This document shows positions 1,400 through 25,273 of a DNA stretch of 30,645 nt, piece by piece. Both the position numbers and the translations under genes were made by a program. Origin of the DNA: a virus; the IMG/VR virus record IMGVR_UViG_3300017783_000122, positions 1-30,645 of that record. One strand, written 5' to 3'. The notes below the pieces were generated by a model. That model saw nothing but the letters and a program-made list of their open reading frames with translations, was not told where the DNA came from and made no database searches. Position 1 is the stretch's first letter. Every line of letters begins with the position of its first letter.

Positions 1400-2276
1400 T
1401 AGCGAATCTCCCGTTGTTGAAGTTTGCATGTGAGAATTGTTCACGGTTGACGAGTTTGAACATGCCATAATTGTTGATCTTGACATAACCTTCGCCACCA
1501 CATTGACGATCTCCAATGTATGCACTAGGTCCATTATTACGCATCAAGAATAACATGTCATCTTTGATAGACTTGATCAAGAACCAGTAACTAATCAAAC
1601 GAGAGTTGTTGAATGTTTCTGGCACAACTTCACGACCTTCACGAATACATTTGTTCAGTGATACTTGAAGCTCTGCTGCTTCTTTCTTGTCGGCAAATGT
1701 CACCAACTGTGCCATCTGTCGTGCAAAACCAACAATCTCATCAAAATCTTCATAGACTTGCCAACACTTAGGTTGAACAAACTTACAAGACTCAGTATCA
1801 TTGAAGATTTCAATATCTACCATGTCATTGATGACATAGGCATCTTTCATGTCACCATCAGTTGCATACAATGTGTGAGGTGCGATGACAATGTTTTGAT
1901 GAATTACTTCATCAAAAATATAAGTAATCGTATTGGGGCAAAAAGTATCATCACCACCAAACCCAATAAAATCACCTTGAACAATCCCGTCGAAACTAGG
2001 AAGACAATCAAGGCAATGGTGTAATATATCAGCAACATTGCCAACATGATTAACATCAATGTCAGAATGTGTTTCATTAATCTTGATAAGTTTCTTATTA
2101 AAGACCGATTTTGTACCAACAAAGAATCGACCCGTCTGCGGATTCGTACCCCATACAATCGCAGGAGCGCCATCGATCTTCGCAGAGATTTCACCATCAG
2201 AAAGGAACCAATCAAGGACAGAAAGATCACCCGTCAGAATAGAATCTTCAGGATGTTGGAGATGAGTGTTCTTCAT
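1392..2276 (-). CDS. Nucleotidyltransferase/ligase-like phage protein (KxDG motif), 294 aa
   Basis: The N-terminal part carries signatures reminiscent of covalent nucleotidyltransferases (DNA/RNA ligases): K33-I-D-G in SAKIDGAPAIVWG as motif I, FFVGTKS at 51-57 in the place of motif III, and DGIVQGDF at 96-103 in the place of motif IIIa. The opening THLQHPED and later PNTITYIF also resemble a conserved T4-like cyanophage family, recalled from memory, with a THLEHxED start and a VKWDGAPAIF motif. An adenylated-lysine enzyme acting on nucleic acid is therefore a reasonable guess, but motifs IV and V are not clear and a non-catalytic relative is possible. The ATG lies immediately after repeat copy 3 with almost no leader; the 70-aa gene overlaps its end. 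Confidence 0.75.
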   Translation of the reverse strand: MKNTHLQHPEDSILTGDLSVLDWFLSDGEISAKIDGAPAIVWGTNPQTGRFFVGTKSVFNKKLIKINETHSDIDVNHVGNVADILHHCLDCLPSFDGIVQGDFIGFGGDDTFCPNTITYIFDEVIHQNIVIAPHTLYATDGDMKDAYVINDMVDIEIFNDTESCKFVQPKCWQVYEDFDEIVGFARQMAQLVTFADKKEAAELQVSLNKCIREGREVVPETFNNSRLISYWFLIKSIKDDMLFLMRNNGPSAYIGDRQCGGEGYVKINNYGMFKLVNREQFSHANFNNGRFANV

Positions 2277-2284
2277 ACTATAGG

Positions 2285-2305
2285 GACACTTTAGAAGCTT
2301 CAGTT
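2285..2305 (-). repeat. Intergenic repeat element, copy 3
   Basis: Minus-strand core CTGAAGCTTCTAAAGTGTC followed by CCTATAGT and then directly the ATG of the nucleotidyltransferase-like gene at 2276. The stop of the 79-aa gene lies four bases upstream. If the TATAGT were a -10 box, the transcript would begin inside the coding sequence, which argues against that reading for this copy. Confidence 0.9.
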
Positions 2306-2308
2306 TAA

Positions 2309-2548
2309 TTAAATTGGAAGTTTTGCTACAGATTTACCCTTACTATGCTTGTCTATAAAGTTTATTGCAGACTGACGATTGCGACAGACTTTAAGAACCT
2401 TTGTCTGATGTACCACTGCTAGTTTAGTATCACTTCCCGCAATAGGCACAGCAGCATACATCAATGGATCATCATATTTTCCAACAATAAACCCTTGCTC
2501 TACAGGTTTGGGATTAAGAATGTCTCTCTTGGATTGTGTTAATTTCAT
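2309..2548 (-). CDS. Hypothetical protein, 79 aa
   Basis: I do not recognise a specific family. The protein begins MKLTQSKRDILNPKP and has a central beta-rich segment with GFIVGKYDDPLMYAAVPIAGS followed by a basic helix (VLKVCRNRQSAINFIDKHS), so it is likely a small soluble, basic protein. Its ATG overlaps a TGA that terminates a second copy of the helicase tail (SEIRK) in another frame, which suggests that this gene originally followed the helicase directly. It ends a few bases before repeat copy 3. Confidence 0.75.
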   Translation of the reverse strand: MKLTQSKRDILNPKPVEQGFIVGKYDDPLMYAAVPIAGSDTKLAVVHQTKVLKVCRNRQSAINFIDKHSKGKSVAKLPI

Positions 2549-2599
2549 TTACGAATCTCACTTTCTAATTTCACTGATTGCTGGCATTCCTTGACGGAA
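2545..2599 (-). pseudogene. Orphan 3' tail(s) of a DEAH helicase gene
   Basis: Read on the minus strand, 2599-2558 encodes FRQGMPAISEIRK-stop. The intact helicase upstream ends FNQGQPAISEIRR-stop, so ten of thirteen residues match while the DNA differs at many third positions. A second, shorter tail SEIRK-stop follows in a different frame at 2562-2545 and its TGA overlaps the ATG of the 79-aa gene. These fragments lie on the far side of the 143-aa gene, as if a cassette carrying a substitute helicase 3' end had been inserted and the old end left behind. The 13-residue match is strong for its length; the five-residue one could be chance. Confidence 0.8.
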
Positions 2600-2633
2600 A
2601 CCATTCCCTGTGGGGAAATGATGGACACTTCAA

Positions 2634-3065
2634 TCAACTGGCACACTCTTCACTCATAAACAAATAGAGTGCCAAATCTCTAGTTTTCGCACTATTTTGA
2701 TGTCCTGATCCAATAGATCTAGCAGTATCAAAAACACGACCTAAAGATCCTTTATCATCACTCGAATAATCTATATTTTTTGAGTGTATAAAATCTACAT
2801 CAAAACATTGAAATTCCCCATAAGACTTCCATGGATTATATTGAGACAACCCCCGAATCTTAACAAGGGCTAAATTTATAGAGTCGCAATCATTGGTGTT
2901 AGATGACTTAGATACAATAAGAGATATATCTCCAGGTTTAAGTGTGTAGTTATTAGTACCATATCCAAGCATACTTGAAAGTTTTCCGGTTTTGAAAAGA
3001 TCATGATGTGTAAATTCACAATCTTCTGGGGGTTGATAGATGCGAATGTAAACGTTGGGATTCAT
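2634..3065 (-). CDS. Hypothetical protein inserted downstream of helicase, 143 aa
   Basis: No family is recognised. The sequence has an N-terminal beta region (NVYIRIYQPPEDCEF), a segment KPGDISLIVSKS, a central LALVKIRGLSQYNPW and a C-terminal helix (KTRDLALYLFMSEECAS). H-N-H, GIY-YIG and LAGLIDADG endonuclease signatures are not visible. The ATG follows the helicase stop by two bases. The gene is flanked by two helicase 3' ends, one intact and one fossil, so it is likely a recently arrived cargo gene. A function in mobility, such as an unfamiliar endonuclease, is possible but is only inferred from context. Confidence 0.75.
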   Translation of the reverse strand: MNPNVYIRIYQPPEDCEFTHHDLFKTGKLSSMLGYGTNNYTLKPGDISLIVSKSSNTNDCDSINLALVKIRGLSQYNPWKSYGEFQCFDVDFIHSKNIDYSSDDKGSLGRVFDTARSIGSGHQNSAKTRDLALYLFMSEECAS

Positions 3066-3067
3066 AA

Positions 3068-4270
3068 TTAACGACGAATTTCACTGATAGCGGGTTGACC
3101 TTGATTAAACACAACATCAACAACTGCCTGAACTTTCTTGGCAGTGCTGATGCCAACTCTGTCATAAGTTGGGATGCAAACTAAACCAAAGGTCTTAGAC
3201 TTGTCACCCAATCTAATCACACGACCAATAGACTGACTGATGCCAATGTAGTCCATGTTCCGCATGAAAATAACAGCTTCAAGACCACTCACGTTAATAC
3301 CCTCAGACAGAATAGAGTGGTGAAGAACAACAAATTTCTTGGTCTTGTCCTTGCCCCAAGTATTCAGTGTGTCAAAGAATACGTCGCGATTGACTTTCTT
3401 ACCATCAATGATTGCACCTGTCTTCGATGTAATCGTCATCCAAGAGTAACCACGTTCAGCAAGTTGTAGGCAGAAATCTGAATGAGTGAGAAGATTGATG
3501 ATTTGCTTTGTTGTGCGAGCACAAATCAAAGTCTTGTCGATGTCGTTGTCATCGATAGTCTCAATCAAGTTGTCACAATCATCAGCAAACATCACCTTGC
3601 GACCTTTAACCATAGGCAATTGTTTGACTACAACTTTAGGAGGGAGAATGTAACCCTGTTCAACTAACTCAGGAGCAGGAACATTACACAGAACCTGACC
3701 ATAAACAGACCAATTCATGCCTGGTTTAGTGGCAGCAAGAGAATGTTTAGGTGTTGCAGTAAAGAAATAGCAACGATTTGCTTCATTAGCAAAGAACTCA
3801 GTCGCAGGAAAGAAGTTCTTCTTTACACTATTGTGTGCTTCATCAAAATAGATGTTGTCAACCTCAATATCTGCCTCCATGACACGATGCAAAGAATTGT
3901 ATGTGGTGAAGATGATACAATTCTCACCCATAGTGCGAGCACAATTTGCATACACGGCAATCTTTTCTGCTTTAGTAGTGCTGACGTGATGTGTTTCACC
4001 ACTGTGAACGTGCATCACATGCAAATATGGGTCACTATTGTTAGGATCAATGACCTCCATAAATTCAGAACACAGTTGCTCTGCCAGCAAAATACGCGGA
4101 GAAACAACAACAGTTGTCACACCACTATTGCAACGATCCATAGAAGATTTTGCATCCATTATCATCGTCAATGTTTTACCACCACCAGTGGGAACGATCA
4201 CCTGACCTTTGTTGTAGTTTTGCAGACGATCAATGATGCGTTCCTGATGTGGACGAAGGGTCAGAGTCAT
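3068..4270 (-). CDS. DEAH-box SF2 DNA/RNA helicase, 400 aa
   Basis: A superfamily 2 helicase with clear motifs in order: RPHQ (Q-like) at residue 6, Walker A PTGGGKT at 27-33, motif Ia SPRILLAEQL near 57, DEAH box at 143-146, TAT (motif III) near 171-173 and a QSIGRVIR motif VI near 346-353. Such proteins unwind or translocate on nucleic acid using ATP. From memory, very similar helicases occur as conserved genes of T4-like cyanophages, distinct from UvsW. No nuclease or extra domain is fused. I start at the ATG at 4270; an in-frame TTG precedes it. It follows repeat copy 4, and its 3' end is duplicated as a fossil at 2545-2599. Function may be in recombination or replication. Confidence 0.93.
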   Translation of the reverse strand: MTLTLRPHQERIIDRLQNYNKGQVIVPTGGGKTLTMIMDAKSSMDRCNSGVTTVVVSPRILLAEQLCSEFMEVIDPNNSDPYLHVMHVHSGETHHVSTTKAEKIAVYANCARTMGENCIIFTTYNSLHRVMEADIEVDNIYFDEAHNSVKKNFFPATEFFANEANRCYFFTATPKHSLAATKPGMNWSVYGQVLCNVPAPELVEQGYILPPKVVVKQLPMVKGRKVMFADDCDNLIETIDDNDIDKTLICARTTKQIINLLTHSDFCLQLAERGYSWMTITSKTGAIIDGKKVNRDVFFDTLNTWGKDKTKKFVVLHHSILSEGINVSGLEAVIFMRNMDYIGISQSIGRVIRLGDKSKTFGLVCIPTYDRVGISTAKKVQAVVDVVFNQGQPAISEIRR

Positions 4271-4293
4271 CAAAGGAGTATCAGTAATATTGG

Positions 4294-4314
4294 GACAGTT
4301 TAGAAGCTTCAGTT
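4294..4314 (-). repeat. Intergenic repeat element, copy 4
   Basis: Minus-strand core CTGAAGCTTCTAAACTGTC then CCAATATTACTG, located between the methyltransferase stop (4318) and the helicase ATG (4270). It carries the C variant before TGTC also seen in copies 1 and 2. Confidence 0.9.
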
Positions 4315-4317
4315 AAT

Positions 4318-5265
4318 TTAACTGACCATTGCATCTAATAATGGGTTTTTAATTGTTTTTTTGAATATTTTCTCTCCATCACGATTAAGATCAAATAAAA
4401 TGTAATTTCTATTTGTATGAATAGCACTCCTACCCACAGTACCTGATCCAGCACATGGATCTAGAACGATTGAATTTTTATTACTGAACATACGCAATAT
4501 TCGATTTAATAATGCAATAGGTTTTTGAGTTGCATAATCTAACTTTTCATTTCCTTGAATTTGTTTAATGTCATTCCATACATCTTTAACAGGGATTCCA
4601 TCCATTTCATCCAGATACTTTTTAACTCTAGGAATACCTGTATTTGAAGAATACTCTAGTCTATTATCATCATGAAGCATCTGCATTCTTTCTTTTGATA
4701 TATGCCATTGGAGATGATTACCATTCCATTCATATCTTAAATTAGGACGAGATACAACGTTTGGTTGACGATTAACAAGTGCAGATGTGTTATATTTCTT
4801 TTTGCGAAACTTACAGATCTTTGCTTTGTTTATTGTATCTTTATCATATTCTTTGTGCTCTGGATTATAAATTGATTCTTTACCTTTTTGATAGACAATA
4901 ATCGTATCATGATTGCGTTGCAGTTGCTTTTTAGATTTGTGATTACCACCAGAAATCCATGCAATCTCATTCTTGAATTTATTTTCACCAAATACATCAT
5001 CAAGGACAATACGAATATGGTGAGAGATCTTGGGTTCTACATGAACAACAATATTACCATAATCAGTTAGAACTCTATGGCACTCCTGCAAAAGAGGACG
5101 CATTAATAACTCTCGATAATCTACACTAGATTTAAATCTATCATCAAAGTGATAAAAGTCTCTACCAGTACAATATGGTGGATCAATATAAATTAAATCC
5201 ACAGAGTTTGCATCAACTTCTTTTAGAAGTTCTCTACTATCACCAATTGTATATTCATTTAGCAT
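4318..5265 (-). CDS. Beta-class DNA methyltransferase (DPPY), probably N6-adenine, 315 aa
   Basis: The catalytic motif IV DPPY is at 28-31 and the S-adenosylmethionine-binding motif I, DPCAGSGTVG, is near 269, preceded by a motif X-like TQKPIALLNRI. This order (IV before X and I) defines the beta class, as in Mod subunits and several type II enzymes. DPPY favours methylation of adenine N6. The region around 140-230 would be the target-recognition domain; the specificity cannot be read. The ATG lies inside the end of the nuclease-like gene (11-base overlap), so the two are co-translated. It is a complete-length enzyme with no visible inactivating change. It may protect phage DNA from the host or from its partner nuclease. 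Confidence 0.95.
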   Translation of the reverse strand: MLNEYTIGDSRELLKEVDANSVDLIYIDPPYCTGRDFYHFDDRFKSSVDYRELLMRPLLQECHRVLTDYGNIVVHVEPKISHHIRIVLDDVFGENKFKNEIAWISGGNHKSKKQLQRNHDTIIVYQKGKESIYNPEHKEYDKDTINKAKICKFRKKKYNTSALVNRQPNVVSRPNLRYEWNGNHLQWHISKERMQMLHDDNRLEYSSNTGIPRVKKYLDEMDGIPVKDVWNDIKQIQGNEKLDYATQKPIALLNRILRMFSNKNSIVLDPCAGSGTVGRSAIHTNRNYILFDLNRDGEKIFKKTIKNPLLDAMVS

Positions 5266-5788
5266 TATTTAAAGAAACCAGAACTTCTTTAGCACAACCA
5301 GTGTACTTTCTACGAATAGAAGCAGGAACAGAACCTACACAATATCCAGGCATATTAGTATCTTCTAATTCACTACTAGGAATAGCAAGATACTCCCACT
5401 CAGAAATATCTTCATGACCTTTAGGGACAATAAACAGTATAACATCAAAAGAGTCTACTGCATAGCGAACTTGTCCATTTTTAGACCCAGCAGTTGCATT
5501 TTTACCTGTAGTTCTTCTAGTTTGTTCCATGTGTAGAGTTTTTCCACCACGAAACTTTACTTGTATTCTTAAACCTTTATCTGATAATCTATCATACTTT
5601 TCTTGCTGTCCCTCATTATCATCAGGTGATTTATCATTTTCAATTTTACATTCTTCACGCAACCATTGTGGTGCAATAATACGCTCAGTTGGAAAAGCAA
5701 GAAATTTACCAATTTCTCTTGTGTCACCTTCAGTAATGAGTTCTTCAAAACCAAGAGCAACGATTTCCGAAAGTTTAGAAACTCCCAT
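5255..5788 (-). CDS. Putative PD-(D/E)XK-like restriction endonuclease, 177 aa
   Basis: The protein has a plausible nuclease core: D66/D70 followed by the strand GLRIQVKFRGG with Q76-x-K78, a QxK form known from Mrr-like enzymes. It continues with a basic stretch (EQTRRTTGKN) and the strand VDSFDVILFIVPKG, as in restriction-enzyme folds. The neighbour in the same transcript is a methyltransferase with which it overlaps by 11 bases, the usual layout of a type II system. Translation should be strong: AAGGAG lies seven bases before the ATG. It has its own sigma70-like promoter and upstream terminator. The nuclease assignment rests on motif and context; a non-catalytic partner or another DNA-binding role is possible. 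Confidence 0.65.
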   Translation of the reverse strand: MGVSKLSEIVALGFEELITEGDTREIGKFLAFPTERIIAPQWLREECKIENDKSPDDNEGQQEKYDRLSDKGLRIQVKFRGGKTLHMEQTRRTTGKNATAGSKNGQVRYAVDSFDVILFIVPKGHEDISEWEYLAIPSSELEDTNMPGYCVGSVPASIRRKYTGCAKEVLVSLNNAK

Positions 5789-5809
5789 CGGTGATCTCCT
5801 TAAAATAGT

Positions 5810-5838
5810 AGTTTAACAGAATGAAGACCGCCTGTCAA
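5810..5838 (-). promoter_or_regulatory. Sigma70-type promoter of the nuclease-methyltransferase cassette
   Basis: Minus strand: TTGACA (5838-5833), exactly 17 bases of spacer, then TAAACT (5815-5810). The -35 box is a perfect consensus and the -10 box matches TATAAT at four of six positions. AAGGAG follows at 5801-5796, then the ATG at 5788. The promoter starts two bases after the T-tract of an intrinsic terminator. Confidence 0.75.
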
Positions 5839-5841
5839 CAA

Positions 5842-5881
5842 AAAACAACCTTAAGGATACAAATATACTTAAGGTTGTTTT
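5842..5881 (-). terminator. Intrinsic terminator upstream of the nuclease-methyltransferase cassette
   Basis: A perfect 14-base-pair stem, AAAACAACCTTAAG with its complement, encloses a 12-base loop. On the minus strand it is followed by T residues (six in a row at 5845-5840, four of them in the stem). It would stop transcripts arriving from the upstream gene and repeat copy 5, insulating the cassette. Confidence 0.85.
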
Positions 5882-5897
5882 AGGAGTCTTGTAGGAG

Positions 5898-5917
5898 GTC
5901 TCAGACACTACTGAGAC
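5898..5917 (-). other. Small hairpin attached to repeat copy 5
   Basis: Minus strand GTCTCAG-TAGTGT-CTGAGAC forms a perfect seven-base-pair stem with a six-base loop directly after the core of copy 5. There is no T-tract, so it is not a terminator by itself. Copies 6 and 8 have related, weaker stems between GTGTCT or GTGTTT and a downstream AGACAC. Confidence 0.6.
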
Positions 5918-5935
5918 ACTTTATAAGCTTCAGTT
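5915..5935 (-). repeat. Intergenic repeat element, copy 5 (TATAAA variant)
   Basis: Minus-strand core CTGAAGCTTATAAAGTGTC: the one C-to-A change compared with other copies breaks the GAAGCTTC palindrome and creates TATAAAG, closer to the T4 late-promoter octamer TATAAATA. It begins directly after the TAA of the basic protein gene. Downstream are a hairpin, a terminator and the sigma70 promoter. Confidence 0.9.
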
Positions 5936-6480
5936 TACTTTTGGTACTCACTTGCGGGTTTGTTCTTACCCTGCCTAATATCTTTAATAAGTCTATCCCC
6001 AGTTCTTTGTAGTTTCTGCCTTTCAGTTCTATTAAGACCACTTGCTTTTTTTGGTTTATAATCAGGACTCACTTTCTTTTCACTCTTTTTAGTTAAAAGT
6101 TGTGATGCAGTTGGTGTTGGTTTCTTTTCAGGTGTAGATGATCCAGTTTTCTTTGCTGCTGCTCTTGCTTGTGCTGCTTTTTTACGTTCTGCTTTTACTT
6201 TATCAGCATATGATTGTTTAACTTCGGCAGAACCTCTTGCTTTTTCTGGTTGTTGTACTCTTGTAGATGCTTGTTTTTGTTGACCAATATCTTTTCTGTC
6301 TTTATATGATTTTGCAGGAACCATTTTACCACCACCCGCAGATTTCATTCTACGTTTTTCGGGTTCACTTTTACGTCTATCAGCACCAACTCTTCCACCT
6401 TCACCAGTTTTTTTAATTTGACTGCGTGACATTACGTCAGAATCATATGCTTCTGTCATAAATTGGGAAAAAGTTTTCAT
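5935..6480 (-). CDS. Basic virion-internal-type protein with capsid-targeting-like leader, 181 aa
   Basis: The N-terminus MKTFSQFMTEA closely resembles the capsid-targeting sequence of T4 internal proteins (MKTYQEFIAEA type), which is removed by the prohead protease after a hydrophobic-x-Glu motif; here cleavage could follow E10. The rest is disordered-looking and highly basic: many KK, RK and KKA stretches, APR- and Gln-rich linkers, and a repeated EPEKRR/QPEKAR motif. This suits packaging with DNA in the capsid and injection into the host. I start at ATG 6480; a TTG at 6492 is in frame and better spaced from AGGAG, so it cannot be excluded. The gene follows a strong hairpin and ends at repeat copy 5. 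Confidence 0.8.
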   Translation of the reverse strand: MKTFSQFMTEAYDSDVMSRSQIKKTGEGGRVGADRRKSEPEKRRMKSAGGGKMVPAKSYKDRKDIGQQKQASTRVQQPEKARGSAEVKQSYADKVKAERKKAAQARAAAKKTGSSTPEKKPTPTASQLLTKKSEKKVSPDYKPKKASGLNRTERQKLQRTGDRLIKDIRQGKNKPASEYQK

Positions 6481-6493
6481 TTTAGAAAGCAAA

Positions 6494-6526
6494 AAATCTC
6501 CTATTATTTAGAATAATAGGAGATTT
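6494..6526 (-). terminator. Hairpin, terminator-like, overlapping a late-promoter-like box and a Shine-Dalgarno
   Basis: The 15-base arms AAATCTCCTATTATT and AATAATAGGAGATTT pair perfectly around a three-base loop. On the minus strand the 3' arm runs into six T residues, so it can terminate transcription from 6535-6886. The loop and adjacent arm contain TCTAAATA (6512-6505), seven of eight matches to the T4 late consensus TATAAATA. The 3' arm contains AGGAG, the likely Shine-Dalgarno of the next gene, which would be hidden in read-through transcripts. Confidence 0.85.
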
Positions 6527-6534
6527 AAATTAAA

Positions 6535-6756
6535 TTAGATTTCTTCTTTCTCTACTTCCTTTTCTTTAGTTACTTTAGGACCAACTTGAACTCTCCCAGT
6601 TTCATAAAACCAAGAAACTCGCTCGCGCCTTGCTTTAAGAAGCATATCATATTGTTCTTTTTGGTCTTTAGTGAAACGAAAATCTTGACGACGCCAAGTT
6701 TGCTTCAATTCTTGAAGATGAGACAGCACGTTTACAGTTTCTGTAGGAAAATTCAT
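6535..6756 (-). CDS. Basic-then-acidic hypothetical protein, 73 aa
   Basis: The protein has a predicted helical core, LQELKQTWRRQDFRFTKDQKEQYDMLLKARR in meaning two helices with alternating charges (about residues 15-45), then SWFYETGRVQVGPK and a Lys/Glu tail. From memory, small proteins with a KARRxRVxxxYETxRVxVGP pattern are common in T4-like cyanophages, with unknown function. I use the ATG at 6756, one base after the TGA of the preceding 42-aa gene; an in-frame TTG upstream would overlap that gene. The strong hairpin at 6494-6526 follows its stop by only eight bases. Confidence 0.8.
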   Translation of the reverse strand: MNFPTETVNVLSHLQELKQTWRRQDFRFTKDQKEQYDMLLKARRERVSWFYETGRVQVGPKVTKEKEVEKEEI

Positions 6757-6757
6757 T

Positions 6758-6886
6758 TCAGTAGTCAATGTTGGAGTTTAGGTATTCGTTCATATTGAAA
6801 TTATTACTTTCTTCAAAGAGTTCAGTAAAATCAGTTTCAACATGATCAAAGTTTTCAAGTTCTTCAATGTCTGAATAATGATCCAT
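6758..6886 (-). CDS. Acidic micro-protein, 42 aa
   Basis: This is a very acidic, mostly helical peptide (MDHYSDIEELENFDHVETD onward), ending NSNIDY. A longer open frame reaches back to an ATG at 6940, but those first 18 codons are the translated repeat copy 6, so I place the start at ATG 6886 downstream of the repeat. No clear Shine-Dalgarno is visible. The 73-aa gene begins one base after its stop. No family is recognised; the acidity would fit an inhibitor or DNA-mimic, but nothing shows this. Confidence 0.6.
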   Translation of the reverse strand: MDHYSDIEELENFDHVETDFTELFEESNNFNMNEYLNSNIDY

Positions 6887-6911
6887 CGGTTTTGTGTCTC
6901 TACAATAATAA

Positions 6912-6932
6912 GACACTTTAGAAGCTTCAGTT
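6912..6932 (-). repeat. Intergenic repeat element, copy 6
   Basis: Minus-strand core CTGAAGCTTCTAAAGTGTC followed by TTATTATTGT and AGAGACAC, giving a six-base-pair stem (GTGTCT with AGACAC, 6916-6894). It lies between the 93-aa and the 42-aa genes and happens to be open in the reading frame of the latter. Confidence 0.9.
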
Positions 6933-6951
6933 TTTTTCATATATCAAAAAT

Positions 6952-7233
6952 TTAAATTTCTCTAACAAATACGTCCATATCTTCTAAATTTTTACCATAT
7001 TTGTTTTTTCTTGTATAAACATATTTTAAATCTTTCCATTGATTAGGAAAACATAATACAAGTGTATGAATATATTTGTGTCTTTCTTCGGTAGTATATT
7101 CGCAATTGGGTTTTGGTTTTACCCCAGTCTCAATTGTAATATATTGCTCATCACAAAAATATACCCAACCCTCAAGATTAGTGTGTTTGGAATTCCACTT
7201 AACATAATCATCAATTTGAGGAATGTATTTCAT
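6952..7233 (-). CDS. Conserved-type hypothetical protein, 93 aa
   Basis: The protein begins MKYIPQIDDYVKWNSKHTN and has a beta-rich first half (LEGWVYFCDEQYITIETGVKP) that resembles an SH3- or Tudor-like barrel, then a segment HTLVLCFPNQWKDLKYV. From memory, a family with DYVKW, EGWVYF and LVLCYPxxW signatures is widespread in T4-like cyanophages; its function is not known to me. Its ATG overlaps the stop of the 100-aa gene (7230-7233, ATGA). It ends about 20 bases before repeat copy 6. Confidence 0.85.
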   Translation of the reverse strand: MKYIPQIDDYVKWNSKHTNLEGWVYFCDEQYITIETGVKPKPNCEYTTEERHKYIHTLVLCFPNQWKDLKYVYTRKNKYGKNLEDMDVFVREI

Positions 7234-7532
7234 GAGAAAGCAGACATTAAAGGATTGAGATTAAGTTGCATTGCCGTATATGGACTAGTATTTGATATAT
7301 CTACCTCCTTTCCGCACTTGGTGTGGTTAATAGGTGCTGAGTAACACCCTTTTTTTGTGTTGTAGAATCCCCAAATACACTTTGCCACAGCGCCACTGTT
7401 GTAAGAGAATTGAGAATGATTGCAAGTCCAAATAGAAACAACATTTTTTTTGAATTGCTCAACTTCATATGTGTATCCTTCAGGTGGATTGTGAGGAAAA
7501 TTTGATGGTAGTTCTAAATTAGTCTTTAACAT
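7230..7532 (-). CDS. Conserved-type hypothetical protein, 100 aa
   Basis: Starts MLKTNLELPSNFPHNPPEG. The C-terminal half has the pattern WGFYNTKKGCYSAPINHTKCG and SPYTAMQLNLNPL, which I recall from small cyanophage proteins of unknown function that carry a YxPIN...PYTAMP signature. The N-terminal part has several aromatic and cysteine residues (IWTCNHSQF), so metal binding is conceivable but not shown. It is coupled to the 93-aa gene by an ATGA overlap and follows the 80-aa gene after 14 bases. Confidence 0.85.
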   Translation of the reverse strand: MLKTNLELPSNFPHNPPEGYTYEVEQFKKNVVSIWTCNHSQFSYNSGAVAKCIWGFYNTKKGCYSAPINHTKCGKEVDISNTSPYTAMQLNLNPLMSAFS

Positions 7533-7546
7533 AATATTAGTAAATT

Positions 7547-7789
7547 TTATGTAGTAAACTCCTCAATAATTTTGGACTCAAGATCTTCTGCAAGTGCATA
7601 TGTACGTGAATTGAGAATATTTTCACGAAGATGTGCATAGAATTTTTGATTAAAATCTCCTTCATCTGCATCTGTAATGAGATCAAAGCACTCATTATCA
7701 TTCTCTGCGATTACATTCCATAGACCACCATATTCACTAGATGGAAATGGAATATAGTGATCAACAATGTAGAAAAACTTTTGTGCCAT
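7547..7789 (-). CDS. Conserved-type hypothetical protein, 80 aa
   Basis: Starts MAQKFFYIVDHYIPFPSSEYG, with a strand-rich N-terminus, then NVIAENDNECFDLITDADEGDF and a helical C-terminus. The beginning, FFYIVDHYIPFPSSEYGG, recalls a small family seen in marine cyanophages, function unknown. An in-frame TTG at 7831 would add 14 residues that look non-coding, so I use the ATG at 7789; GAGGAG lies unusually far upstream (16 bases). The gene sits between the 38-aa and 100-aa genes. Confidence 0.8.
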   Translation of the reverse strand: MAQKFFYIVDHYIPFPSSEYGGLWNVIAENDNECFDLITDADEGDFNQKFYAHLRENILNSRTYALAEDLESKIIEEFTT

Positions 7790-7854
7790 TTGTGTGTTTA
7801 AATTACTCCTCAATTTTAGTTTATTCAACAAGATTAGTCAACCATCTTTCTAGT

Positions 7855-7971
7855 TCATTCAGAATAAAACTCTGCAAGATAATAATCAACTGTAACCTCT
7901 AGTCGCTCTGCTTCAGATTCAATTTGAATCCAAAACTTTTCTGCAACAGATTCGAGTTCTTTTTCAGTCAT
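7855..7971 (-). CDS. Acidic micro-protein, 38 aa
   Basis: A short frame starting MTEKELESVAEKFWIQI, predicted to be one long amphipathic helix with an aromatic C-terminus (VDYYLAEFYSE). Support is the ATG overlap of eight bases with the stop of the 63-aa gene (7964-7971), an intact frame and a composition like the neighbouring proteins. No Shine-Dalgarno is seen; translation by coupling is likely. No family is recognised. Confidence 0.65.
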   Translation of the reverse strand: MTEKELESVAEKFWIQIESEAERLEVTVDYYLAEFYSE

Positions 7972-8155
7972 TTTGAGGTGGTTTGCTGATGAAACGATCA
8001 AATAATTCAATTCTATATCCCTCTTTTAATGCTTGAATGATAATATTATCATAAGAATGTGAGAAGAGGGGTATGTGACGATGAAGAAGATAGTCCTCAC
8101 AATCTTCAGATAGTGCTTCTTTTTGTTCGTGAGAAAAATCCTCTAAATCAATCAT
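7964..8155 (-). CDS. Small hypothetical protein, 63 aa
   Basis: Starts MIDLEDFSHEQKEALSEDC; helical, acidic at the N-terminus, then HRHIPLFSHSYDNIIIQALKE and an RxELFDRF segment. No family is recognised. I prefer the ATG at 8155 to an in-frame TTG at 8164 because it forms an ATGA overlap with the stop of the secreted-protein gene upstream. Three histidines close together (RHIPLFSH) could bind a metal, but that is speculative. Confidence 0.75.
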   Translation of the reverse strand: MIDLEDFSHEQKEALSEDCEDYLLHRHIPLFSHSYDNIIIQALKEGYRIELFDRFISKPPQND

Positions 8156-8406
8156 TGGGTACAATCTCCTGATGTTTTTCGAATGCCAAATAAGAACAAA
8201 TCAATCTCACTTTCACGGCAAGATTTTTTTGACTCATTGTGCATATAAGTTCTAGGTGGAGATGTATTTATTACCGTTGGAGGAACAACTACAGGACCAG
8301 AATTTGATGGTTGAAATGATGGAGGATAATATACAGGTTGAGCAAAAACAGGAGTAGCTAAAAATACCGAAAAAGGAATAGTTAGAATAAAATTGATTTG
8401 ATTCAT
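8152..8406 (-). CDS. Predicted secreted/periplasmic small protein, 84 aa
   Basis: There is a clear signal peptide: a short Asn-containing start, a hydrophobic core (INFILTIPFSVFLATPV) and a typical cleavage site AFAQ-like at VFAQ-PVYY (about residue 23). The mature part is Pro- and Ser-rich (PSFQPSNSGPVVVPPTV), with two cysteines near the C-terminus, which may form a disulfide. The protein would be exported to the periplasm or envelope of the host. Phage proteins of this kind can act in superinfection exclusion or lysis, but neither is shown. It lies next to another exported protein. Confidence 0.75.
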   Translation of the reverse strand: MNQINFILTIPFSVFLATPVFAQPVYYPPSFQPSNSGPVVVPPTVINTSPPRTYMHNESKKSCRESEIDLFLFGIRKTSGDCTQ

Positions 8407-8425
8407 AATAAAGATTTAAAGAAAA

Positions 8426-8818
8426 TTACCTTGCACAAGATGCTCTATCGAGTGCAACACCACCTACGACACCAAGTGGTATTGACCATGCATAAGCATC
8501 CTTTTTAGAAACTAATGCAGAAACTCCACCACCAATGAGACCAGATAATAGTCTACCATGACGATTGCAAGTTCTTTTTGATACTGTATTGTGTTGGGGA
8601 GAAGAATACTGCCTGTTACTAAGTTGGTTACAAGAAACTTTTTGACGATTTCTTTTAACATGACCACCAATATACTTACCTGAATTATCGTAATAACCAG
8701 GAAGATATTGTTCTGATGTCTGATGACATACAGATTCTTCATATATTCTTACTTCTTGAGCATAAGATATGCTAGGAATAAAAATAAATGCAGAAAGTAG
8801 TAGTGATTGCAATCTCAT
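8426..8818 (-). CDS. Predicted secreted protein with glycine-zipper-like segment, 130 aa
   Basis: The signal peptide MRLQSLLLSAFIFIPSISYAQ has a cleavage site after YAQ (about residue 21). The mature protein contains five cysteines, a repeat-like GYYDNSGKYIGGHVKRNRQK, and a C-terminal Gly-rich hydrophobic segment LLSGLIGGGVSALVSK then IPLGVVGGVALDR, like the glycine zippers of 17-kDa-antigen or SlyB-type envelope proteins, which insert into membranes. A role in altering the host envelope is plausible. The following gene also encodes an exported protein. It follows repeat copy 7, with a 14-base palindrome just before the ATG. Confidence 0.8.
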   Translation of the reverse strand: MRLQSLLLSAFIFIPSISYAQEVRIYEESVCHQTSEQYLPGYYDNSGKYIGGHVKRNRQKVSCNQLSNRQYSSPQHNTVSKRTCNRHGRLLSGLIGGGVSALVSKKDAYAWSIPLGVVGGVALDRASCAR

Positions 8819-12225: not shown

Positions 12226-12919
12226 GCTTCTGTTTATTTTTCCATAATTCATATAATTCATCATCAAGTAAGTCTTTTGCAAGATCATCAATTTCACTTT
12301 TTTTCAATTTAGATAGATCAATATCTGAACGATCCCATTTATTGAATTGATTCAAAGCAATTTTTGCCTTCTTACGATAATCTAAATCATCCGAATCATA
12401 AATGTCATTCAATATTTTTATTGATTCATCAACTTTTCCCCAATACCATCCAGAAGCTGCTTTTTCAAATAAAAGACCAATCTCTCCATCATATCCAATG
12501 TCAAATTTAAAGTCATTATCTGCATTGTCAATAAATTTCAATCCCAATGATGCAGAAATATATGCATCTTGATGATGATTTCTTTCCCTATAAAAATTAC
12601 TTAAAAGAAAATATGCTTCTGGTCTTTCTGGTAAAGTGAGCATTGCATGTTGAAACAAAGTTTTAGTAGTCCAATCTCTTCCACCTTGTTTTTTATAACA
12701 ATATCCACCACGAATTAGTGCCTCATATGCTAAAAAATCATCGTCTGTTCTTTCTGCACATCTAAGAAAGTATGAGAGTCCTGGTGCAGTATGACCTAGA
12801 CTTTCATAACAAACTCCTAGATAAAAATTAATATCTGGATCTTCTGGATTTTGTGCATATTTGATTAGAAGTTTTTCTAGTCCTTCAATTGATTCTTTGT
12901 TGATTAATGTAACTGACAT
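12221..12919 (-). CDS. TPR-repeat protein of the glycosylation cassette, 232 aa
   Basis: Helical repeats have the TPR pattern: PDINFYLGVCYESLGHTAPGLSYFLRC-like units (about residues 27-56), EALIRGGYCYKKQG (65-80), then PEAYFLLSNFYRERNHHQDAY (95-118) and a later GDEG/LLFEKAASGWYWGKVDES unit. TPRs are protein-interaction scaffolds and often accompany glycosyltransferases. Here its ATG overlaps the FkbM-GT25 gene by 16 bases, and GGAGGT is its Shine-Dalgarno, so it probably cooperates with the transferase. No enzymatic domain is seen. Confidence 0.85.
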   Translation of the reverse strand: MSVTLINKESIEGLEKLLIKYAQNPEDPDINFYLGVCYESLGHTAPGLSYFLRCAERTDDDFLAYEALIRGGYCYKKQGGRDWTTKTLFQHAMLTLPERPEAYFLLSNFYRERNHHQDAYISASLGLKFIDNADNDFKFDIGYDGEIGLLFEKAASGWYWGKVDESIKILNDIYDSDDLDYRKKAKIALNQFNKWDRSDIDLSKLKKSEIDDLAKDLLDDELYELWKNKQKQ

Positions 12920-14307
12920 AACACCTCCAAGTTTACTTTATGACCGTTGTCTCTCCACCATTTCATTAAATACTGATTTGAAAAATAGTGTCCTAACTTT
13001 TGTCCTTGAAAAATTTCACTAGTATCACTAAAATCTTCTGGTGTAAATGTTGAATTGATTTCCTTTGTATTTTCTGTAAATATTGGAATTGTATAATTTC
13101 TACCTGGAAATGTAAATAAAATATTCTCGACTAGTGGAGTTATATCTGTATACTTAATATGTAAGTTGAAAACAACTCCTCTGGTATACTCATCTATAAT
13201 TTTTTTAGCATGTTCACGAGTCATGATGTAAGCAGTTGCTCCCCAATCATCCCAATATCTTCTCCTTAAATGAACTGCTCTACTATTCTCTATATTTCCC
13301 CTGACAAACATTAATTGAACAGTATCCCATTCATCTGGAAGATGATTTATAAAATCTTCCCAAGTAAAATTCCAATACTCTGCTATATCTAAAAGAATAT
13401 CATCTTCACAGAAAAATCCATAATCATCATTTGTTTGATAGTAAAAATGTTTAAGAGCTTTCAAGTGAGAAATTGCACACCCGATTGTTCCTCCATCCAT
13501 TTCTGCCAAATAATTTCCAGTGAAAAGATCATTTGATTCATAAAATCTTGGTGAAAGAATAGGATGAACTCTTTTTATTCCACATTTATCAAAAGAATGT
13601 TGTAAAATTTCTCTCCTATTCTCACATTCATCTAATGAAACATAATGAACTACTGGAAAATTCTTAAATTTGTCCTTTAAACTCAAACTCATTTTTTTCT
13701 CCTTTACATAAAAAGCATTTCCCCACACTTGAGTGTGCCACCACTCAGTTTCAACTCTCTTAAATGAATAATTTTCTAAGAAAGAATCAATGTCACCTAT
13801 GAGTGCATTTCCCTCATAAACTTCATCTTGATTAACTTCACAATAAAGATATTCTACAGTTTCTAATGTTTTAGTTGCACCCTTCAAGACTTCAAGTTCA
13901 TAACCTTGAACATCAATTACCATGAAGTTATAATCGTAATTATAGTCATCTAATTTTGCAAGATTTACAATCTCTGTACCATCAAATACCACTTCAGGAT
14001 GAGCTATAAGATGAACTTTTGGATTTAGGATAGAACTACTCTGGCAATCATTACTACTAATATTCATAGTAACTGACCTATTACCAGAACCTAAAGCAAC
14101 TTTATGAATAGAAACCTTATCGGAATAATTTTGAACAGTTTGTTCTAAAACTTCAAAATTTTTCTGAAGTGGTTCAAAAAATGCAACTTTAGGAACACCA
14201 TGTTGCATGTACTCATCAACTTCAGTACCATAATGTGCTCCAACATGAATGATTCCTGTTATTTCTGGTTTATATTTTTCAAAAACATTTTTAAATGATA
14301 ATTGCAT
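12904..14307 (-). CDS. FkbM-type methyltransferase fused to GT25-type glycosyltransferase, 467 aa
   Basis: Residues 1-205 form an FkbM-like SAM-dependent methyltransferase: motif I HVGAHYG (21-27), FFEP near 43-46 and IDVQGYELEVLKG (131-143). Residues 206-467 form a family GT25 (LPS-type) glycosyltransferase: VVHYVSLDECENRRE, GCAISHLKAL (276-285) and the acidic EDD (301-303) for nucleotide-sugar/metal binding. The joint contains M206 preceded by a perfect AAAGGAG six to seven bases upstream, i.e. an old ribosome-binding site translated as VKEKK, so the GT half may also be made alone. The gene starts with GGAGG seven bases before ATG 14307. The likely role is glycan synthesis and methylation on fibres or host. 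Confidence 0.9.
   Translation of the reverse strand: MQLSFKNVFEKYKPEITGIIHVGAHYGTEVDEYMQHGVPKVAFFEPLQKNFEVLEQTVQNYSDKVSIHKVALGSGNRSVTMNISSNDCQSSSILNPKVHLIAHPEVVFDGTEIVNLAKLDDYNYDYNFMVIDVQGYELEVLKGATKTLETVEYLYCEVNQDEVYEGNALIGDIDSFLENYSFKRVETEWWHTQVWGNAFYVKEKKMSLSLKDKFKNFPVVHYVSLDECENRREILQHSFDKCGIKRVHPILSPRFYESNDLFTGNYLAEMDGGTIGCAISHLKALKHFYYQTNDDYGFFCEDDILLDIAEYWNFTWEDFINHLPDEWDTVQLMFVRGNIENSRAVHLRRRYWDDWGATAYIMTREHAKKIIDEYTRGVVFNLHIKYTDITPLVENILFTFPGRNYTIPIFTENTKEINSTFTPEDFSDTSEIFQGQKLGHYFSNQYLMKWWRDNGHKVNLEVLCQLH
13699..13705 (-). promoter_or_regulatory. Internal Shine-Dalgarno at the domain junction
   Basis: AAAGGAG on the minus strand, six bases before the in-frame ATG 13692 (M206) of the FkbM-GT25 gene. 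It is as strong as the ribosome-binding sites of real genes here. It marks a gene fusion and may direct a second product of about 262 aa. Confidence 0.7.
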
Positions 14308-20338: not shown

Positions 20339-23300
20339 TCACAATGCTGCTGCTAAAGCAATTGCAAGTGCATTTGTTACACCACCAGCAGCACCTGATG
20401 TACCTTGAGTACCTTGAGATTCTCCAGCTTGTCCTTGAGTTCCAGATCCTTCTGGTCCTTGAACTCCTTGAGGTCCTACAATACCTATAGAACCTTGAGC
20501 ACCATCTATTCCAGCAGATCCTGTTCCTTGAACACCCTGAACACTTTCTCCTTGAAGACCTTGAGAACCTTGAGGACCGACAACTGTTGAATCAGCACCT
20601 ATTTGACCCTGTTGTCCTTGAACACCTAAAGCACCTTGAACACCTAAAGCACCTTGAGGTCCAACAACTGTTGAATCAGCACCTATTTGTCCTTGAACAC
20701 CTAACGTACCTTGAGAACCTAAAGCACCTTGAGTTCCTTGTGCGGAACCTGCTGGTCCTTGAACAGAAGCACCTTGAACACCTTGAACACCTAAACCTTG
20801 AGAACCTTGAGTACCTTGAACACCTTGAGTTGCTCTTCCGACATTCCATCCAAGTTCATCACTGTTCGCCCATTGCCAAGTACTATGACCATTATCTTTA
20901 TGATAACCTCCTGTATAAGCACAAGTGTATCGTTTTCCGTTTCCACCAGCACTGATGATGTTAGAGCTGTTTGAAATAAAGAAGTAGTCAGTGCCTAGAG
21001 AAGATGTAATAGCTAAATCTGTATTGTAAATAGTTTTATGTGAATAAGTAGTCCCATCAATATCTGTGATTGAAATTCCAATGGTTATACTACTACTACT
21101 GCTAGAAGGAACAGTAGTATTACTAACTTCTAGTTTTCCTGAAGCAATACCATTATAAACATTGGTACTTGAATTGTCATATTCAAATTGTATACCAATA
21201 GATCCGACTCCACCTTGAGAACCTTGAGTTCCAGAACCTTGAGTACCTTGTGCGGAACCTGCTGGTCCTTGAATAGAAGTACCTTGAACACCTTGAACAC
21301 CTAACGTACCTTGAGGTCCAACAACTGTTGAATCGGCACCTGTTTGTCCTTGTTGTCCTTGAACACCTTGAACACCCAACGTACCTTGAGGACCAACAAC
21401 TGTTGAATCAGCACCTGTTTGTCCTTGTTGCCCTTGAGTACCTAACGCACCTTGAGTTCCAGATCCTTGTGTTCCTTGTGTTCCTTGAGCAGATCCAGCA
21501 GGTCCTTGAATAGAAGTACCTTGAGCACCTTGAGAACCTTGAGGACCGACAACTGTTGAATCGGCACCTATTTGACCTTGTTGCCCTTGAGTACCTAACG
21601 CACCTTGAGTTCCAGATCCTTGTGTTCCTTGCGTACCTTGTGCGGAACCAGCTGGTCCTTGTAGACCTAATGTACCTTGAGCACCTAACGTACCTTGGGG
21701 TCCAACAACTGTTGAATCAGCACCTATTTGTCCTCTTTGTCCTTGAACACCTTGAGAACCTAAACCTTGTGATCCTTGTGTTCCTTGTGTTCCTTGAGCA
21801 GATCCAGCAGGTCCTTGAATAGAAGTACCTTGAGCACCTTGAGAACCTTGAGGTCCAACAACTGTTGAATCAGCACCTATTTGTCCTCTTTGTCCTTGAA
21901 CACCTTGAGAACCTAAACCTTGTGATCCTTGTGATCCTTGAGTACCTTGTGAGGAACCAGCTGGTCCTTGAATACCTGTACCAACTATACCTTGAGAACC
22001 TTGAGGACCGACAACTGTTGAATCGGCACCTATTTGTCCTCTTTGTCCTTGAACACCTTGAGAACCTAAACCTTGTGATCCTTGTGATCCTTGCGTACCT
22101 TGGGAAGAACCAGCAGGTCCTTGAATAGAAGTACCTTGAACACCTTGAGATCCAGATCCTTGTGATCCTTGCGTACCTTGGGAAGAACCTGCTGGTCCTT
22201 GAACAGATTCCCCCTGAAGTCCTTGAGAACCTTGAGTTGCTTGTGTTCCTTGAGTTCCTTGAGCAGATCCAGCAGGTCCTTGAGCACCTGCACCAATTAT
22301 ACCTTGAGAACCACCAGAACCTTGAACACCCTGAGCAGATCCAGCAGGTCCTTGAGCACCTGCACCAATTATACCTTGAGAACCACCAGAACCTTGGACA
22401 CCTTGGGAAGAACCAGCAGGTCCTTGAATACCTGTACCAAATATACCTTGAGAACCACCAGAACCTTGGACACCCTGAGCAGATCCAGCAGGTCCTTGAA
22501 TACCTGTGCCAACTATACCTTGAGCACCTTGAGTACCCTGAGCAATAGTTGCTGAGAATGTTATTGCTTTTGTGGTAGTAATACCAGAAATAATACTTGG
22601 ACTGGTAGTAACTGCAATACCTGGTCCTGCAATAATTTTAAGTGGTTCTTCACCATCTGCTTTTAATGAATCTTCACCATCAATAAACCAAGGGTTGAAA
22701 GTAGATCCAAGGTCAACAAAAACTTCACCACTACCATTGTCAGTAATATTAAATCCACTATTATTATCAAATATAATTGTGTTTACATCTTCTACAGGAG
22801 TATTTGCATCACTCCCACCATTACCAAGAGTATTTTTAACTGTAAGAGCTGATCCCCCACCACCACCTTCAAAGAATATTTCTGCTGCTCCTGTTCCAGA
22901 GTTAAAAGTAGCAGTAGATACACCAGCACCTTTTAATACAAGAGATGTTGCATTTCCTAAAGACGCACCCTCAGTAGAAATAGCTATAGTATTACTACCT
23001 TGAGAACCTGTTTGACCTTGTTGTCCTTGAACAGATTCACCTTGAAGACCTTGAGCACCTTGAGGTCCAACAACTGTTGAATCAGCACCTGTTTGGCCTT
23101 GTTCTCCTTGAACACCTAAAGCACCTTGAACACCTAACGTACCTTGAGGACCGGCAACTGTTGAATCAGCACCTGTTTGGCCTTGTTCTCCTTGAACACC
23201 TAAAGCACCTTGAGTACCTTGAGATGATGGAGTTCCTTGAATACCTTGAACACCTTGAACAGATTCACCTTGAAGACCTTGTGAACCTTGAGCACCCTGA

Positions 23301-25273
23301 AGTCCCTGAAGACCTTGTGCTCCTTGAACACCCTGAACACTTTCTCCTTGAAGACCTTGAGAACCTTGAGTACCTTGGACACCCTGAGTTCCAGAACCCT
23401 GAACACCTTGAACAGATTCACCTTGAAGACCTTGTGAACCTTGAGTACCCTGAGATGATGGAGTTCCTTGAATACCCTGAAGACCTTGTGCTCCTTGTAA
23501 TCCTTGAGTACCTTGAGATGATGGAGTTCCTTGAATACCCTGAAGACCTTGTGCTCCTTGAGTACCTTGAAGAGAGTCTGCGTTAAGGGTTTTAATTGTA
23601 ACTTCACCACCCATTCCTTGGTGATATTCGCATCTATAATATAAAGTATCAGGTGCGTCTGCTGGTACAATAAAAACTACTGTTCCACTATCGTTTCCAT
23701 CTCCAGTGACACCAGTAGTGTATACATTTAAAAAATCATATGATCCAGAATTATCTGTAGTTTGGAAATGCCAAGGATGGCCAGATACAGATCCTTGGAG
23801 ATCAAAAACATACTTTTGACCTCTGATCAAATAAAGAGTATCTTGCTTTACATTATCAAGATAATATTTGTTTCCTACACCATCGAATGCAACTGTAACT
23901 GTATAGGTTCTTGCAATGAATAAGTCACCAGATTGACCTTGAACTCCCAGAAGACCTTGAATACCCTGTTGTCCTTGTACTCCCTGTTGACCCTGAGTTC
24001 CCTGTTGACCCTGAGTTCCTTGTAAACCCTGTAAACCTTGAGAACCTTGTGTTCCCTGTTGACCTTGAGTTCCCTGTAATCCTTGGGATCCTTGAGCACC
24101 TTGTACTCCCTGAGTGCCTTGTAGACCTTGAGTACCTTGTGGACCTTGAGTACCTTGAGTACCTTGAGATGATGGGGTTCCTTGAATACCCTGAAGACCT
24201 TGAGTACCTTGTAATCCTTGAAGACCTTGAGTACCTTGTAATCCTTGAAGACCTTGTGAACCTTGAGTACCTTGTGGACCAGAATCTCCCTTATCACCAG
24301 TTCTTGCAAAAGTGATAATTAAATCTTCACTATTGGTAAATGATGTTGCACTACCAGAAACATATGAACAAGAAACTTCAAAATAACCAGTTTGTTCTGT
24401 TAAAGAGGTGATAGTAAACAGAGCAAAATCTGAAGCATCTAAACGATTTGATACTCTAAAATGTCCTTTGATTGTTGATGATGAATCATCAATTGTTCTT
24501 AAATATGTTTGAATATCTGTGGCATCAGTATCTTCATCATCAATATTAAGTATGGTTGCTAATGATAAAGTTGCGTTATTAAATCCTAGATTACCTGAAC
24601 CAGGATCTCCTGTTGTTGAATTTGTAAATGTAAATGCAAAAGTTGCTCCACCAAAATTTCCTTCAGTACCTTGAGATCCCTGAAGACCTTGTGATCCTTG
24701 AGTTCCTTGAACACCCTGAACAGATTCCCCCTGAAGACCTTGAGAACCTTGAGTTCCTTGAGTTCCTTGAGTACCCTGAAGACCTTGAGAACCTTGAGTA
24801 CCCTGAAGTCCCTGAAGACCTTGAGAACCTTGAGAACCTTGAGTTCCTTGAGTACCCTGAAGACCTTGAGAACCTTGAGTACCCTGAAGTCCCTGAAGAC
24901 CTTGAGAACCTTGAGTACCCTGAAGTCCCTGAAGACCTTGAGAACCTTGAGTTCCTTGAGTTCCTTGAACAGATTCACCTTGAAGACCTTGTGAACCTTG
25001 AGGACCCTGAAGTCCCTGAAGACCTTGTGTTCCCTGAACACCCTGAACAGATTCCCCTTGAAGTCCTTGAGAACCTTGAGTTCCTTGAGTTCCTTGAGTG
25101 CCCTGAAGACCTTGAAGTCCCTGCAATCCTTGAGCACCTTGTATTGAAGGAGACCAAGATACTTTACCTTCAGATCCAGTAGCAGTTAATATAGAATTAG
25201 CAGCACCAACATTTCCATTAGAATCATATACATCAACTTCTAATCTTATTGGCTCTTTACCGTTATATCCCAT
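20339..25273 (-). CDS. Collagen-like fibre protein with globular inserts, 1644 aa
   Basis: After an N-terminal beta domain of about 45 residues, five blocks of G-x-Q triplets (mainly [12 protein letters not shown]) predict collagen-like triple helices. They are interrupted by globular inserts near residues 205-325, 448-562 (cupredoxin-like), 762-910 and 1365-1485. Recurring interruptions [14 protein letters not shown] and [11 protein letters not shown] break the repeat. The cupredoxin-like insert carries H499, H502, C548, H551 and M554. The C-terminus ends [11 protein letters not shown]. This is almost certainly a trimeric tail fibre or capsid fibre. The ATG follows GAGG by nine bases and the 111-aa gene by 11 bases. 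Confidence 0.9.
20400..25140 (-). repeat. Collagen-coding degenerate 9-base tandem repeats (five blocks)
   Basis: DNA blocks at about 24660-25140, 23940-24290, 22980-23580, 21210-22545 and 20400-20830 are tandem multiples of 9 bases encoding G-x-Q triplets. Longer units (about 45-130 bases, e.g. the [11 protein letters not shown] unit) are repeated many times in 20.5-22.1 kb. The low complexity invites slippage and unequal recombination, so fibre length can vary and the assembly here deserves caution. Confidence 0.9.

Follow-up and report, generated by a model that had tools for sequence, protein, structure and literature searches.

The closest described counterparts of the locus considered here are the bacterial Type II restriction-modification systems of the PvuII fold class, with which it shares adjacent genes, a small nuclease of predicted PD-(D/E)XK type and a separate beta-class methyltransferase, but from which it differs in having been found only in virus contigs and in a nuclease bearing QXK rather than (D/E)XK. 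Members of the BisI family, typified by NhoI and Eco15I, provide the best structural match to this nuclease and possess the same E-D-Q-K site; in Eco15I the residues E49, D69, Q79 and K81 are each needed for activity, as demonstrated by mutation (PMC11347163). The BisI enzymes, however, depend on methylated DNA and lack a partner methyltransferase, and their identity to the nuclease is about 14%. Complete restriction-modification systems are also found in large lytic viruses, namely the chloroviruses and marseilleviruses, although these viruses are eukaryotic and are likened to the present locus by type of system, not by sequence. Chlorovirus nucleases are believed to break down host DNA (PMC7019647); marseillevirus systems spare host DNA but can cut the DNA of related viruses that lack the system, and the restriction enzyme of melbournevirus is transcribed before its methyltransferase (PMC7253447). 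Among phages other than prophages, complete systems are nearly absent, with nine in 831 phage genomes (PMC4176335), a figure that documents the rarity in lytic phages asserted by an earlier note on this DNA.

The window, meaning the whole stretch of DNA analysed, is the 30.6-kb (30,645 nt) virus record IMGVR_UViG_3300017783_000122, positions 1 to 30,645. It is a fragment of a T4-like Synechococcus phage; its closest isolates, among them S-SM2, Sf-FS3 and SynMITS9220M01, belong to the same group of phages. It carries genes for a UvsW-type helicase, the baseplate and other structural proteins. The cassette is encoded on the minus strand, immediately upstream of the UvsW helicase gene, and comprises the following features:

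4318..5265, minus strand: ORF of 315 aa, predicted beta-class DNA methyltransferase, with DPPY motif
5255..5265, minus strand: 11-nt overlap of the nuclease and methyltransferase frames, from the ORF coordinates
5255..5788, minus strand: ORF of 177 aa, predicted restriction endonuclease, with PD-QXK site E35, D66, Q76, K78
5796..5801, minus strand: AAGGAG resembling a Shine-Dalgarno sequence, 7 nt upstream of the ATG
5810..5838, minus strand: promoter-like site, TTGACA (5838-5833), 17 nt, TAAACT (5815-5810), with TG preceding the second hexamer
5842..5881, no strand assigned: hairpin with perfect 14-bp arms (5842-5855 and 5868-5881) around a 12-nt loop, flanked by T-rich sequence on either side

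The earlier note had described an insulated unit composed of a 14-bp terminator hairpin, a TTGACA-17-TAAACT promoter, AAGGAG and a 177-aa reading frame overlapping that of the methyltransferase, and all of these elements are indeed present. Insulation holds on the upstream side, where the hairpin lies, but not downstream, as a scan of the 44 bp that separate the methyltransferase from the UvsW helicase found no terminator. The nuclease-first order that the note considered notable is as it stated, but has a virus precedent in melbournevirus (PMC7253447). The hairpin folds at -16.4 kcal/mol (z = -6.9 against shuffles, with equally stable shuffles in 0/200), and because T runs follow on both strands, it could terminate in both directions and is probably a bidirectional terminator. 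The promoter-like site scores 10/12, joint best in 2200-8500 in a consensus scan; since sites of this class are not above chance in that region (22 observed against 24.4 expected), the candidate promoter rests on its position and on the recurrence of TTGACA in relatives. A TTGACA site and an AAGGAG-like sequence occur at the same place in many related cassettes; L004 and L017 are among the few that lack them. The nuclease and methyltransferase frames overlap by 4-29 nt in nearly all relatives, and the 11-nt overlap in the window probably couples their translation. A search of the window for tRNAs and Rfam families found none. The G+C content of the two genes (0.31-0.35) falls inside the range of the window, making base composition uninformative as a clue to foreign origin.

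The cassette is best read, with a probability of roughly 85%, as a Type II restriction-modification system carried by a phage and belonging to a virus-borne family; it represents a known type of system in a new family and an unusual setting. As in Type II systems generally, the nuclease and methyltransferase are encoded by separate, adjacent genes, and the nuclease presents the appropriate fold with an intact active site, as judged from a structural model, Foldseek and residues conserved in 52/52 sequences. This assignment could not be drawn from curated families, to which the 177-aa protein had chance-level matches only, with no meaningful score against the nuclease families of Pfam, NCBIfam, PHROG or PADLOC. 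Its profile matches to known nucleases are weak (NhoI, E 0.69; PDDEXK_5, 0.018; PADLOC mREase_II, 0.0073, one member). A first model based on 18 close relatives only gave a pLDDT of 55, while the addition of relatives at 35-66% identity yielded a good AlphaFold2 model from a 27-sequence alignment (pLDDT 86.9, pTM 0.82). The top Foldseek matches of this model in the PDB are NhoI (4.7e-4), I-Ssp6803I, Eco15I, Holliday junction resolvases (Hjc) and PvuII, with full-length TM-scores to the best PDB matches that are modest (0.37-0.48 by query length), and PD(D/E)XK endonuclease proteins are among the top named matches to viral models.

The D...QxK core perceived by the earlier note is present as D66-x9-Q76-x-K78, with D-to-Q and Q-to-K spacing identical to that of D69, Q79 and K81 in Eco15I. 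Together with E35, these residues are all retained in 52/52 complete nuclease homologues, down to about 25% identity, and the complete set of residues invariant at that depth is G27, K28, E35, D66, Q76, K78, R80, T90-R91-R92, G105, D115 and P137. E35 sits in a long N-terminal helix of the model, as Eco15I E49 likewise sits in a helix (PMC11347163), and its invariance and position suggest that it serves as the helix glutamate of the active site. The protein thus displays the core fold, acidic helix residue and Asp of the PD-(D/E)XK superfamily, with the variant QXK, and on the strength of the model is a PD-(D/E)XK-type nuclease with an intact predicted active site. An unrelated fold, which the note had named as grounds for abandoning its reading, was not what the search returned: PD-(D/E)XK nucleases match, restriction enzymes first. 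A longer homologue of 309 aa, with an N-terminal extension of approximately 120 residues, is encoded at 2995-3927 of contig L107.

The likeness to BisI enzymes raises the prospect that the nuclease is modification-dependent, cutting methyl-marked DNA like BisI, NhoI or Mrr, and that the methyltransferase has another purpose. Indeed, the closest solved folds, NhoI and Eco15I, cut methylated GCNGC and the PD-QXK site is of the Mrr/BisI type (PMC11347163), while the best PADLOC match is a methyl-directed enzyme (E 0.0073, one member). This account is nonetheless very unlikely, as a nuclease co-expressed with the maker of its own target would destroy the phage, QXK is also found in BtgZI, which is not described as methylation-dependent (PMC4081073), and modification-dependent enzymes are described as lacking a methyltransferase partner (PMC11347163) where 53/54 contigs here are paired. 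Membership in the BisI family itself was rejected on the same pairing and on the NhoI profile score of E 0.69.

The partner gene is more readily classified. The methyltransferase matches Pfam N6_N4_Mtase (4.7e-40), phrog_67 (9.5e-48) and PADLOC MTase_II (1.1e-48), and its solved relatives include EcoP15I Mod, MboIIA and RsrI. Its DPPY motif lies near the N-terminus and its SAM motif, DPCAGSG, near the C-terminus, the order that defines the beta class, so that the note's assignment to this class was right. The DPPY motif suggests methylation of N6-adenine, or possibly N4-cytosine. A Type III system involving the neighbouring ResIII-like helicase was considered and rejected, as such systems pair a Mod subunit of some 600 aa with a Res subunit that has its own nuclease, and the methyltransferase here has 315 aa; the helicase is UvsW-like and common to cyanophages, with relatives in 415 phage records, 0 of which match the nuclease. 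The same helicase (window 3068-4273) is labelled a type III restriction enzyme in the cyanophage records RB11-B and RN05-S, probably from the ResIII Pfam name.

Relatives were sought in 2.9 million virus contigs by nuclease and then, separately, by methyltransferase clade. The nuclease query returned 25 close relatives (77-88%), two at 66% and nine others, one of these cut by a contig end, and a methyltransferase follows the nuclease in 35/35 complete copies. The methyltransferase-clade query (at least 47% identity) returned 54 contigs, in 53 of which a nuclease lies directly upstream, a count that includes L146, whose nuclease is cut by the contig end. Two unrelated neighbours would lack such conservation, and the proposal of the earlier note that the two genes form one functional pairing is accordingly supported by the contig counts, by the fold match and by the invariant catalytic residues. 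The sole unpaired contig, L163, has the methyltransferase only, and no complete nuclease without a methyltransferase was seen among the contigs found, which is the direction expected if an unprotected nuclease were lethal. In L163 the methyltransferase (2429-3436) is located upstream of a gene resembling that of DNA polymerase III alpha, and the full pair of L104 adjoins such a gene too. Nine more distant methyltransferases (at most 40%) have no such nuclease.

The nucleases of the family fall into 29 clusters at 97% identity. Relatives were absent from 72,556 plasmids and from 50,697 phage records, though 415 of the latter carry a close UvsW; two pattern scans of 84,980 GTDB genomes, which may miss distant relatives, also found none. 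The records nearest the window may be absent from these collections. Two weak Klebsiella phage matches (E 0.7-0.9) were dismissed, the one inspected consisting of short genes near rII with no annotated methyltransferase. From these searches, the pair appears to represent a family not named before, with members seen to date in environmental virus sequences alone.

A further account would see the methyltransferase as an anti-restriction or regulatory enzyme, with the nuclease reduced to a helper or an inactive remnant. Solitary methyltransferases occur frequently on mobile elements (PMC4176335), and L163 itself has a methyltransferase alone. Median dN/dS, however, is 0.10 for the nuclease and 0.086 for the methyltransferase, so both genes are, as judged by substitution patterns, under purifying selection, and with all four catalytic residues kept in 52/52 nucleases the nuclease is not decaying, leaving this account the least probable of the alternatives to a Type II system. 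The distance matrices of the two genes correlate (r = 0.66, 0/2000 permutations), and in contigs L067 to L072, where the methyltransferase is approximately 80% identical to that of the window and the nuclease only approximately 40%, the nuclease has been either exchanged within the pair or subject to divergence there.

The genomic setting of the cassette is varied, placed before UvsW, after UvsW, before DUF6267, or beside polymerase or recombination genes in other phages. This association with different genes in different phages would suit a homing-endonuclease-like mobile gene, spreading the cassette by cutting cassette-free genomes, as would the match to I-Ssp6803I, a PD-(D/E)XK homing enzyme with the best TM-score in the top ten (0.48/0.56). 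Such a role is very unlikely, as homing enzymes have no need of a methyltransferase partner, whereas the two genes here overlap and evolve together, and the contexts reveal no single target gene or fixed insertion site. No integrase was found in 26 cassette contigs of up to 169 kb, and two of the cassette contigs, of 154 and 169 kb, encode the T4 gp23 major capsid protein.

The isolate S-SM2, a close T4-like cyanophage, carries a restriction gene in the corresponding slot beside UvsW. This gene, SSM2_066 (L108, 5950-7724), encodes an MjaI-family enzyme (PF09568, 1.2e-46) one gene from the UvsW helicase, and so belongs to another nuclease family than that of the window. The adjoining SSM2_067 (379 aa) has no Pfam match, so that no methyltransferase is recognised there, and neither gene is homologous to the window pair. 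In P-SSM2 a dam methylase gene lies two genes away from the UvsW-type helicase, and these examples, from eight isolates examined, suggest that such genes may recur in the neighbourhood of UvsW.

In the proposed Type II system, newly made phage DNA would be methylated at a short site by the methyltransferase before it is packaged. The nuclease would be the first protein translated from the shared message and could be made early in the next infection without harm to the phage, because the incoming genome would already be methylated, and would cut unmethylated DNA at the same site, that of co-infecting phages lacking the cassette and probably that of the host chromosome. We infer that the two enzymes are functional, recognise a common site, and work in this sequence and to this end. 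Under this reading, virion DNA is predicted to contain a motif that is fully methylated. Of the roles considered, addiction is the least likely, the phage having no sign of lysogeny.

A more tentative proposal concerns host DNA. The genes denA, ndd and denB are missing from cyanomyoviruses, which have been proposed to break down host DNA by some means not yet described (PMC2984593). It is possible, though rather doubtful, that the cassette replaces denA and denB in some T4-like cyanophages, such that virion DNA methylated on arrival would be spared while the early nuclease selectively cut the unmethylated host chromosome along with rival phages. The cassette is too sporadic to be a general answer for the cyanomyoviruses but could serve its carriers. 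The family appears intact and under selection, occurs in at least 53 virus contigs from the environment, some of them from T4-like phages that infect marine picocyanobacteria, and has a nuclease outside every curated family. In a virus group of ecological importance, it would provide a means of phage-phage exclusion and perhaps of degrading host DNA.

The window displays several other features. A 15-bp hairpin followed by a minus-strand T run at 6494-6526, between ORFs of 77 and 185 aa, is a probable terminator. The 467-aa protein encoded at 12904-14307 has an FkbM methyltransferase domain fused to a glycosyltransferase family 25 domain, and a 1644-aa protein (20339-25273), located between probable tail and structural genes, is composed mostly of GxQ-type collagen-like repeats (TQGSQGLQG).
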